From Vulcanimicrobiota bacterium (lineage in GTDB: Bacteria; Vulcanimicrobiota; Xenobia; Xenobiales; JADMJV01): a stretch of 64,000 nt of DNA. The DNA lies in the NCBI GenBank assembly GCA_019637395.1, contig JAHBVR010000020.1:1-64000 (forward strand), in the 5' to 3' direction. The notes beneath the pieces are model-generated. The model was not told the origin of the DNA. It was given only the letters and a program-made list of their open reading frames with translations, and did no database searches. The position numbers and the translations under genes are program-made. Below, piece by piece: positions 6,884 to 16,459 of the stretch; position 1 is the first letter of the stretch; each line of letters opens with the position of its first letter.

Positions 6884-8653
6884 ATGCCCATGTCAAACAG
6901 CATCGGACAGACACCCCTCAAAGGCATCCCTTTCGCTCACCCCGCCAAAAGCAAACCCGTTCATCTCAAGGAAGAACTCAGCGAGTCGGAGGAAGGCGGA
7001 CGCGTCTTCACTCAAGATGTCGGTATCGATCGTAGCAACGATCCCGACAAAGGCTTGATGGACTGGATCTTCGGACCCAAACAACAAGAAAAGCCGACGC
7101 TCGCCGAGCCGATGCAGTTCAAGTTAGGCAACGCCAGCCTGGCCGGGCATCTGGCCAGCGACCTCAAACACGCCCAGTATCCCAGTTCCCACTACGAAAT
7201 TCGCACTTTTATGCCGGCCGGCGATGGCCAGATCGCCTCGGTCAACTTTGAGCAACTGCTGGCGGCCACGCGCATTCCCTCGCCTCCTTCACAGCACTAC
7301 GTGGTGACCGACAAGCAGGTCCAGCAGGCGATCAGCGACACCGGCGCGGCCCGTGAGCAGCAACTCAAGAACGGCGCCGTGCCCGGCGACCGGGTGGTGC
7401 CCAAAGACGCCACCTTGAACCCCACCGATGTCACGATGTACCTGCGTTCCACCGGCGATGTCAGCACCCGTTACGCGCAGCAGCTTTCCAAGGTCGGCCA
7501 GATCGAGGGCTTTCACGTGGTGGCCGGCATCGGCGGCAGCGCGGGGTCTTTTCAAAGCACGCTGAAAGGCTATGAGAACATCTCCCTGATGGAGATTCCC
7601 CACGGCGAAGTGTGGACGGAGGACTACTCCGAGCCCTCTCTGGGCAAGGGCCAGATTACTCCGGCCATCTTCTCCGACAGCTACAGCGGCGGCCTGATTC
7701 ATGAGGCCATCACCGAAGGCCGCAAACAGCGCTACAAGGGCACCGGATTGGATGGCAAGTACGCCTACCACGGAGCTGTGAACCAGGGCAAGTATCAGCA
7801 AGCCGCCCTGGCCCGCGGCACGGTGACCCAGGGACCGCTGCGCCAGGCGCTCAGCTACATGGAAGGCGGCAACATCTACACCGGTACCCGCCAGAACGGG
7901 GAAGGCTACGTGCTGGTCGGCAAAGACAGCTTCCACGTGACCAAGAAACTGCTGGAGAAGCAGACCGGCAAAGAGTGGTCGGAGGCCGAGATCAAGAACG
8001 TGATCGCGGCCGACCTGGGCCTGGAGGCCAAGAACGTGGTGCCCATCGAGCAGCCCGGCGCTTTCCACCTGGATATGCGCCTGACGGCGGTGGCTCCCGG
8101 CGAAATCATGCTCAACGACTCCAAGGCCGCCTGTGAACAGCAACTGACCTGGGCCCGCGAAGCGGTGGCCGAAGCTCTAAAAAATGGCGAAATCAACCAG
8201 AAGCAGGCCGACAAGCAACTGGCCAAGATCGAAGACCGGGCCGCCGGCATGCGCGAGCAGGCCGCCAAAATGGCTCCCTACGAAGAGATGACCGCCAACG
8301 ATCTGAAAGCGGCCGGCTTCACCGTGCACCGCGTGGGCGGCTCCTTTGTGGATCCGACCAATCCGGGCCGCGATACGGCCAACTACTTCAACGCCCGCCA
8401 CTTCACCAACGAGCAGGGCGAACGCATCTCCGTCCTGATGGGCGGCCAGGCCCACGAAGAAGCCTTTATGGCGCAAAAAATCTTCGATATGGCTCACGGC
8501 ACCATCAGCCGCATCCACTTCCTGGACCCGTCGGTGACCCAGAAGACGCTGGATCTGTGGGGTGGCCTCAAGTGCCGCACCAAGCCGGAGGGCGACCTCA
8601 TCTCGGGCGAACTGCTGCAAAATCCCGCTCACGCTCAGTTGCAACAGGCCTGA
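6884..8653 (+). CDS. Guanidino-modifying-enzyme-like protein (deiminase fold), 589 aa
   Basis: The key residues of the pentein/guanidino-modifying superfamily (agmatine deiminase, peptidyl-arginine deiminase, amidinotransferase) occur in order: VWTEDYSEP with Asp247, MEGGN with Glu327, FHLDM with His395 and Asp397, and GGLKCRT with Cys564 as candidate nucleophile. In known members the Cys attacks the guanidinium carbon while His and the acids assist. An Ala/Lys/Glu-rich helical insert (about 415-465) separates the His and Cys motifs. The length exceeds agmatine deiminase (about 365 aa) and approaches peptidyl-arginine deiminases. There is no signal peptide. A strong terminator follows. The substrate, free or protein-bound arginine or other guanidine, is unknown. 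Confidence 0.7.
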   Translation: MPMSNSIGQTPLKGIPFAHPAKSKPVHLKEELSESEEGGRVFTQDVGIDRSNDPDKGLMDWIFGPKQQEKPTLAEPMQFKLGNASLAGHLASDLKHAQYPSSHYEIRTFMPAGDGQIASVNFEQLLAATRIPSPPSQHYVVTDKQVQQAISDTGAAREQQLKNGAVPGDRVVPKDATLNPTDVTMYLRSTGDVSTRYAQQLSKVGQIEGFHVVAGIGGSAGSFQSTLKGYENISLMEIPHGEVWTEDYSEPSLGKGQITPAIFSDSYSGGLIHEAITEGRKQRYKGTGLDGKYAYHGAVNQGKYQQAALARGTVTQGPLRQALSYMEGGNIYTGTRQNGEGYVLVGKDSFHVTKKLLEKQTGKEWSEAEIKNVIAADLGLEAKNVVPIEQPGAFHLDMRLTAVAPGEIMLNDSKAACEQQLTWAREAVAEALKNGEINQKQADKQLAKIEDRAAGMREQAAKMAPYEEMTANDLKAAGFTVHRVGGSFVDPTNPGRDTANYFNARHFTNEQGERISVLMGGQAHEEAFMAQKIFDMAHGTISRIHFLDPSVTQKTLDLWGGLKCRTKPEGDLISGELLQNPAHAQLQQA

Positions 8654-8663
8654 AACCAGACCC

Positions 8664-8700
8664 GGGGCGGCGCCTTACCAGCGCCGCCCCATTTTGTTTG
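8664..8700 (+). terminator. Rho-independent terminator
   Basis: A perfect 10-bp stem, GGGGCGGCGC at 8664-8673 with GCGCCGCCCC at 8681-8690 and a 7-nt loop, is followed by ATTTTGTTTG. It lies 11 bases after the stop of the deiminase-like gene and also faces the 3' end of the convergent lipoprotein gene. Confidence 0.85.
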
Positions 8701-14254: not shown

Positions 14255-16459
14255 ATGGCCAACCTGAAAAAAGATATCGCCGCGAGTATCGCGGTCGGAC
14301 TCGTCGCAATCCCTTTATGCCTGGGCATCGCCCACGCCTCGGGAGCCCCCCTGATGTCCGGATTGGTGGCCGGTATTACCGGCGGCCTGGTCATCGGCAG
14401 CATGAGCAAATCGAATCTGGCCGTCAGCGGCCCGGCCGCCGGTTTGACCACCATCGTGCTGGCCGCCATTGCCACCTTGGGGAGTTACGAAGCTTTCCTG
14501 ACGGCGGTGGTCTTGGCCGGCATCCTTCAGGTTATCTTCGGCAAGTTGCGCGTGGGCGGGCTCTCCAGGCTCTTCCCCTCCCCCGTGATCAAGGGAATGC
14601 TTTCGGCCATCGGCCTGATCTTGATTATGAAGCAGTTCCCCCACCTGGTCGGCTTCGACAAAGAGTCCTTCGGCGTCGAGGAGTTCTTTGACACCGATAA
14701 GGATATCGAGAGCGGCAGCGCCCAGGGGCTCAATACCTTCCGTATGATCATCCTGGCCTTCTCGTCGCTGGAGCCGGGTGCGTTGCTCATCGGCTTGACC
14801 AGTCTGGCTCTGCTTTACTTCTGGGATTGGAAAATGGCCAAGCGTTTCCCGATCATCCCCGGCTCCCTGGTGGCCGTCGGAGTGGCCGTCCTCATCAACC
14901 AGATGTTGGGAGCGGGGATGCGGGTGGCCGGCAAGCACCTGGTCAGCGTGCCGGAACTGCACCCCAACAATTTTGTGCACCCCGATTGGGCGGCCTTGAG
15001 CAATCCTCACGTCTACCTGGTAGCTCTGACCATCGCGCTGGTGGCCAGCGTGGAGAGCCTGCTTTCGGTGGAAGCGCTGGACCGTCTCGACCCCCAGAAT
15101 CGGCGCACTCCCCCCAACTCGGAATTACTGGCCCAGGGCGTGGGCAACCTCATCAGCGGCCTTTTGGGCGGCCTACCCGTCACGGCCGTCATCGTGCGCG
15201 GTTCGGTGAACATGGCGGCGGGAGCCACCAGCAAGCGCTCTGCTATCATGCACGGGGCCTGGATTCTGATCGCCTCACTGGGCCTTCGTAACGGCATCAA
15301 TGCCATACCGCTGGCCGCCCTGGCGGCAGTGCTGGTCCACGTGGGCATTAAAATGGCTCATCCTCGCACTCTCCAACAGATGAGCAAGCGGGGCTGGAGC
15401 CAACTCATCCCCTTCGTGGTCACGGTGCTGGCCATTCTCTTTACCGACTTGCTGATTGGTATCTGTGTCGGCACGCTGGTGTCGGGCTGCTTCATTCTAC
15501 GCAACCTGCACGCAGCCAAAGGTTTTACCGTGCACAAGAGCGGTCTGATTACTCGGATAAAACTACACCAGGAGGTCACCTTCTTCCACAAAGTGCGCCT
15601 GTCCAGCGTGCTGGAAGCCGTTCCCGCCGACTCCATTCTGGAAGTCGACGGTAGCGAGGCCCGCACCATCGACCACGACGTGCTCGATTTGCTGGAACTC
15701 TTTAAAGGCCAGGCAGCCCACAAAAATATCGAGATCATCTTTGGAGGAATTTCACTTATGCAGAGCTTTTCGGATAAGCAGATGGCCGCTATGCAGGCGG
15801 AATACGACGCCTTATTGAGCAACAATCAGGCCTGGGTGGAGGGATGCCAGAAGGAAGACCCCCAATATTTCGAGCGCATGGCGATTGGCCAGAAGCCGAC
15901 TTTCCTTTTCATCGGCTGTAGCGATAGCCGCGTGCCCGCCGAGGTCATCACCCGCACCGAGGCGGGGCAGCTCTTTGTGCATCGGAACATCGCCAACGTG
16001 GTGTCGCTGCACGACATGAACCTGATGTCGGTGCTGCAATATAGCGTCGAACATCTGGTGGTGCCCCACATTATCGTGTGCGGTCACTACGGCTGCGGGG
16101 GGGTTCATGCCGCCCTCAGTTCGCAATCCTTCGGCTTGATCGACAATTGGATCCACCCGATTAAAAAGGTGGTGGATGATAACCAGGCAGAACTCGCTTC
16201 CATTCTGGATCCCGAGCAAAAAGAACGCCGGATCATCGAATTACATGTCCTGGCGCAGGTGCGCAACATCCTCAAAACCCCGGTCGTGCAGCGGTCGATC
16301 CAGAAGCTGGGCATCCCGCGCGTACACGGTTGGGTCTATGACATGACCACCGGCAAAATCAAGGATCTCAAGGCCGACGTCAACTTGCAGGACGATTTAC
16401 ATCCGGTTTTCCATTACGAGTACGATTTCCAGAAGAAAACCCCCGCAGCCAAACATTAA
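14255..16459 (+). CDS. SulP-family anion transporter fused to beta-carbonic anhydrase
   Basis: 734 residues. Residues 1 to about 420 form a SulP membrane domain with the N-terminal IAASIAVGLVAIPLCLGIAHASG segment and about 12 further helices. A short degenerate STAS-like region follows (about 430-495). A complete beta-carbonic anhydrase domain completes the protein, with zinc ligands in CSDSR (Cys and Asp near 553-555) and HYGCGG (His and Cys near 610-613). The fused enzyme would interconvert CO2 and bicarbonate next to the pore, so bicarbonate uptake or pH control is the likely job; SulP-carbonic anhydrase fusions are known in bacteria. It has its own promoter and ribosome binding site. Confidence 0.93.
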   Translation: MANLKKDIAASIAVGLVAIPLCLGIAHASGAPLMSGLVAGITGGLVIGSMSKSNLAVSGPAAGLTTIVLAAIATLGSYEAFLTAVVLAGILQVIFGKLRVGGLSRLFPSPVIKGMLSAIGLILIMKQFPHLVGFDKESFGVEEFFDTDKDIESGSAQGLNTFRMIILAFSSLEPGALLIGLTSLALLYFWDWKMAKRFPIIPGSLVAVGVAVLINQMLGAGMRVAGKHLVSVPELHPNNFVHPDWAALSNPHVYLVALTIALVASVESLLSVEALDRLDPQNRRTPPNSELLAQGVGNLISGLLGGLPVTAVIVRGSVNMAAGATSKRSAIMHGAWILIASLGLRNGINAIPLAALAAVLVHVGIKMAHPRTLQQMSKRGWSQLIPFVVTVLAILFTDLLIGICVGTLVSGCFILRNLHAAKGFTVHKSGLITRIKLHQEVTFFHKVRLSSVLEAVPADSILEVDGSEARTIDHDVLDLLELFKGQAAHKNIEIIFGGISLMQSFSDKQMAAMQAEYDALLSNNQAWVEGCQKEDPQYFERMAIGQKPTFLFIGCSDSRVPAEVITRTEAGQLFVHRNIANVVSLHDMNLMSVLQYSVEHLVVPHIIVCGHYGCGGVHAALSSQSFGLIDNWIHPIKKVVDDNQAELASILDPEQKERRIIELHVLAQVRNILKTPVVQRSIQKLGIPRVHGWVYDMTTGKIKDLKADVNLQDDLHPVFHYEYDFQKKTPAAKH

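Follow-up and report, generated by a model that had tools for sequence, protein, structure and literature searches.

The gene at positions 6884-8653 (+ strand) of the window, the 64,000-nucleotide stretch of bacterial DNA analysed here, encodes a divergent protein that is homologous to the penteins and has conserved their catalytic residues. The reading we prefer, to which we give a probability of about 0.72, is that the window protein is a guanidine-hydrolysing enzyme of the pentein superfamily, cytoplasmic or non-classically exported, and a member of an expansion made up of two families, A and B. Most likely it acts as a cysteine-dependent, deiminase-like hydrolase, and its chemistry would be that of a hydrolase and not of a transferase. 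On present evidence, it represents a new divergent branch of a known superfamily rather than a new kind of enzyme.

The gene and its neighbourhood

The open reading frame comprises 589 codons and is a real gene, with the position and the length of 589 aa that had been assigned to it in an earlier sequence-only reading. Four orthologues with 77-92% identity are found in other Eremiobacterota-related genomes, and the dN/dS of the window gene against these relatives (0.07-0.15) places it under purifying selection, while its GC3 is 0.80 against a GC2 of 0.42. The second ATG, at 6890 (MSNSIG...), is the likelier start codon because the same start is common to the four orthologues. The N-terminal segment (residues 1-22; 6884-6949, +), in which no signal peptide is evident, has 77-86% identity among orthologues and is followed by a variable linker (residues 23-75; 6950-7108, +), where identity to the most distant orthologue is no higher than 47%. 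The location of the protein would be cytoplasmic, or outside the cell by a non-classical route.

A terminator-like hairpin of 10 G-C pairs with a T-rich tail lies directly 3' of the stop codon (8664-8690, +), and the gene is apparently transcribed alone. In the orthologous loci, one of which carries an insertion of several kb, it keeps a conserved place beside genes of the FGE-sulfatase-like and GGDEF-EAL types; co-transcription with these downstream neighbours was considered and set aside, since the hairpin suggests that they are transcribed separately. A divergent sodium:solute symporter gene is present upstream in only four of the five orthologous loci, for which reason no functional pairing with it is claimed. 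None of the genes neighbouring the window gene points to a guanidine substrate. Elsewhere in the window, a SulP-type sulfate/bicarbonate permease fused to a beta-carbonic anhydrase (PF00916 and PF00484) is encoded at 14255-16456, and a serine recombinase fragment (resolvase N-terminal domain) at 293-772, near the left end.

Homology to the pentein superfamily

The window protein itself has no match in searches of Pfam, NCBIfam, PADLOC or PDB, and its one match in PHROGs is at chance level (E 0.25). The earlier impression that it resembles no standard deiminase is borne out to the extent that no Pfam or NCBIfam model recognizes it. The PF04371 (PAD_porph) model is matched by 5 of the 21 family A members with a best E of 1.1e-5; the window protein gives no match, and the best family A relative individually listed scores 22.3 bits against a gathering cut-off of 25. 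Profile-profile comparison of family A with its sister family B yielded E-values of 4.3e-13 (local) and 1.2e-15 (end to end), against 0.32 for a reversed family B decoy, and the family B profile found the window gene in the whole 7.66-Mb genome at E 7.2e-5; as pairwise hhalign E-values are not database-calibrated, it is the reversed decoy and the genome search that carry the weight. The end-to-end alignment pairs D247 with D124, E327 with D175, H395 with H290, D397 with D292 and C564 with C453. Compared directly with three agmatine deiminases, the family A profile gives a weak signal (E 0.0025); for family B, the match of its profile to the phylum's true agmatine deiminases has an E of 6.9e-8.

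A PDB profile search with family A returned no pentein, only chance matches in the N-terminal region, mostly to histones, and the arginine deiminase models PF02274 (Pfam) and TIGR01078 (NCBIfam) were unmatched by family A. No relatives were detected in the viral contigs, plasmids and phages searched. The sequence-only reading had proposed a pentein, guanidine-modifying enzyme, and this proposal is well supported at the level of sequence by the profile-profile homology, by the PF04371 matches of the relatives and by the invariant catalytic residues.

Two AlphaFold2 models built from five orthologues, one of the whole protein and one from residue 173, are of low confidence (pLDDT 40.6 and 43.8), the sequences being too few and too similar, and both are unreliable because alignment depth is lacking. 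Among the Foldseek matches of the first there is no pentein; for the second low-confidence model, the pentein AstB (1yni) ranks second (E 5.9e-3, probability 0.97, TM 0.24).

Catalytic residues and a possible mechanism

The residues picked out earlier as a pentein active site (Asp247, Glu327, His395/Asp397 and Cys564) are present at those positions and are invariant in all 21 aligned homologues, even where identity is lowest (32-36%). In this alignment of 21 sequences, A2, the invariant positions are W244, E246, D247, E327, G329, N330, H395, D397 and M398, together with N500, N503, R505, G560, G561, K563, C564, R565 and K567, as well as R280 and R283. An ordered pentein-like pattern built from families A and B is matched by 4 of the 1002 predicted proteins of the genome, each one a pentein homologue, and by none of approximately 20,000 shuffled proteins.

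The putative guanidine-binding Asp lies in the motif W244-x-E246-D247 (W-T-E-D; 7613-7624, +), which reads W-x-R-D in family B and in PPAD. Family B always has Arg immediately before the catalytic Asp, as does PPAD (W-T-R-D); in 21 of 21 family A sequences this residue is Glu. The E327-G-G-N330 motif (7862-7873, +), the counterpart of D-G-G-[D/N] in family B, is followed by F-H395-L-D397-M (8063-8077, +), with the putative general acid/base His and a second putative guanidine-binding Asp. Further on are the invariant N500 and N503 (8381-8392, +), N503 aligning near the YNN motif of family B, and the G-G-L-K-C564-R-T-K motif (8561-8584, +) with the putative nucleophile. Between the His/Asp and Cys motifs lies a helical insert of approximately residues 413-476 (8120-8311, +), assigned from secondary structure in the best-scoring part of the low-confidence models. 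This insert had been singled out earlier; it is real in sequence terms, but it is not peculiar to the window protein, as a similar stretch occupies the equivalent position in family B. In plant agmatine deiminases, a gate-keeping loop is located between repeats IV and V (PMC6447857).

In PPAD, the catalytic triad consists of C351, H236 and N297, and the guanidinium is held by D130 and D238 (PMC4487231). Alignment and inspection by eye suggest C564, H395, D247 and D397 as the equivalents of C351, H236, D130 and D238, while N503 may, with some uncertainty, be the counterpart of N297 on inspection by eye. If the enzyme works as PPAD and agmatine deiminase do, the guanidinium would be held by Asp247 and Asp397 while Cys564 attacks its central carbon, giving a covalent thiouronium intermediate; His395 would protonate the leaving ammonia, after which water would free a citrulline-like ureido product. 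PPAD also uses R152 and R154 to bind the substrate carboxylate, with R154 contacting the preceding peptide carbonyl as well, and the equivalents in human PAD4 are R372 and R374 (PMC4487231). Judged by eye, no such Arg is evident at the corresponding place in the window protein; R280 and R283 (7721-7732, +) lie further on and are candidate substrate-binding residues.

Distribution of family A and the pentein set of the genome

The genome from which the window derives carries four family A genes, the three paralogues having 48, 41 and 38% identity to the window protein, and six family B genes. Each of the five genomes sampled from the genus, this one included, has 3-6 family A matches, and a single genome of another family of the same order has one; single-sequence and profile searches found none in the remaining 143 genomes from the phylum. 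Family A is present in 2 of the phylum's 70 genera and, among the genomes searched, is confined to one order of Eremiobacterota. In an unrooted tree of families A, B and the agmatine deiminases, in which several rows are long, family A forms one clade (support 100/99) on a long stem of 3.8 changes per column, family B lies to one side of a less well supported branch (75/95), and the agmatine deiminases stand separately.

Family B, reached through genome searches with the A2 profile and the Pfam models PF04371 and PF02274, consists of proteins of approximately 450-680 aa. Of the 149 genomes from the phylum, 14 carry it, and the highest number of matches in a single genome is 13. Its motifs are W-x-R-D, D-G-G-[D/N], [F/D]-H-x-D, Y-N-N and G-A-[I/L]-R-C. 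Its members, found in large-genome Eremiobacterota (for example L048:5946-7361, L049:6266-7699 and L139:13814-15400), score mostly below the Pfam cut-offs and have weak C-terminal matches to PF02274; one of them, L031, reaches 31.8 bits over most of the PF04371 profile, above the cut-off of 25. Families A and B together constitute a lineage-specific expansion that accounts for about ten pentein genes in the genome of the window.

No canonical arginine or agmatine deiminase is recognizable in this genome, although L031 does pass the PF04371 cut-off; nothing in it exceeds the cut-off of PF02274, and PF03068 (PAD_C) has no match at E up to 10. A canonical agmatine deiminase is likewise not recognizable in the genus, and genomes that have one carry family B too. 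Genes of arginine or agmatine pathways were not seen beside the family B members of this genome with one exception, an argininosuccinate synthase-like ORF approximately 4 kb from the family B member in L049.

Some penteins of the genome share with unrelated proteins (a cytochrome P450, a lipase-like protein, an adenylate kinase with an 80-aa extension and glycine-rich membrane-like proteins) a Pro-rich leader at the N-terminus that ends in D[S/T/Q][V/F/A]x[I/L/V], at L087:5370-6878, L080:610-1887, L136:17716-18465, L159:15116-15946, L125:12064, L126:1265-2698 and L045:7436-8797. The first pattern tried showed no enrichment, and a post hoc pattern was approximately 3.5-fold enriched at N-termini. 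A genome-wide targeting motif was dropped from the explanation because the window protein does not have it.

Candidate substrates and alternative functions

Peptidyl-arginine and small guanidine compounds are about equally likely as substrates, because there are several divergent copies and no canonical deiminase partner genes. That the protein is a peptidyl-arginine deiminase like PPAD or PAD4, perhaps acting on the proteins of its own or of neighbouring cells, is a tentative possibility. PAD_porph is the nearest named Pfam family of its relatives, the W-T-x-D-Y motif resembles W127-T-R-D130-Y of PPAD, the paralogues are several and differ in their N-terminal leaders, and R280 and R283 could bind the substrate backbone. 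Yet PF04371 covers the deiminases of free agmatine too, the position of PPAD R152/R154 shows no evident Arg pair, and the protein has neither an evident signal peptide nor a PAD_N or PAD_M domain, in a genome that lacks any PF03068 match.

A deiminase or dihydrolase of free arginine, agmatine, methylarginine or N-succinylarginine, replacing the canonical enzyme that the genus lacks, is equally doubtful. It would account for a genus devoid of recognizable agmatine deiminase and a genome with no arginine deiminase above the cut-off, which nevertheless has two carbamate kinase genes (L158:7332-8276 and L159:7889-8836), one of them above the NCBIfam cut-off and one below. The E-G-G motif, which is like that of arginine deiminase, also counts in its favour, as does AstB as one of the top Foldseek matches, albeit with a poor model. 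On the other hand, neither carbamate kinase gene adjoins a pentein or carbamoyltransferase gene, no aguB scores above the cut-off in the genome, ten paralogues exceed what one pathway needs, and family B also occurs in genomes with canonical agmatine deiminase.

An amidinotransferase, which would have the same fold and residues and pass the amidino group to an amine, is improbable. Penteins do include amidinotransferases that share the catalytic core (PMC8826395), but the nearest families, PF04371 and PF02274, are hydrolases, and no biosynthetic gene cluster is seen at the window locus. There is a similarly slight chance that the pentein fold has been kept in a binding or regulatory protein that is no longer an enzyme; the Glu that stands where an Arg usually precedes the catalytic Asp and the very long stem branch would fit such a loss, but none of the five catalytic positions varies among the paralogues, and a dead enzyme would have no need of such constancy.

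A bolder and rather unlikely extension is that the roughly ten penteins of large-genome Eremiobacterota form a lineage-specific set, not closely related to PPAD or the animal-type PADs, that citrullinates proteins or peptides of their own or of other cells. If any of them act on proteins, they would amount to a new bacterial citrullination system. In the literature searched, no paper joined Eremiobacterota with arginine deiminase, and the wider expansion of families A and B was not reported; nor do the libraries searched contain the family of the window protein. Such genes would stay annotated as hypothetical proteins because the window protein is invisible to Pfam and NCBIfam and its relatives fall below the cut-offs tested. 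Families A and B offer a tractable set for testing bacterial guanidine substrates beyond free arginine and agmatine.

Comparison with known systems

The animal and cyanobacterial PADs (PF03068) differ from the system described here, in which neither a match to that family nor PAD_N and PAD_M domains were found. Succinylarginine dihydrolase AstB is, like the window protein, a large pentein, but no sequence-family match joins the two, and the model behind the structural match is too poor to be weighed. With arginine deiminase (ArcA, PF02274) the window protein has in common an E-G-G-[N/D] motif and a Cys near the C-terminus, while family A does not match the models of that enzyme. PPAD is secreted, whereas in the window protein no signal peptide is evident. 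Within PF04371, which includes PPAD and AgDI, the window protein is set apart by its size (589 aa against approximately 345-385 aa for the agmatine deiminases of the phylum), by Glu for Arg in W-x-R-D and by a longer helical stretch between the His/Asp and Cys motifs. It nevertheless shares with PF04371 the order and type of the catalytic motifs (W-x-x-D, GGN, H-x-D and Cys), and its homology to that family shows at the profile level, by way of family B and of some members of family A.
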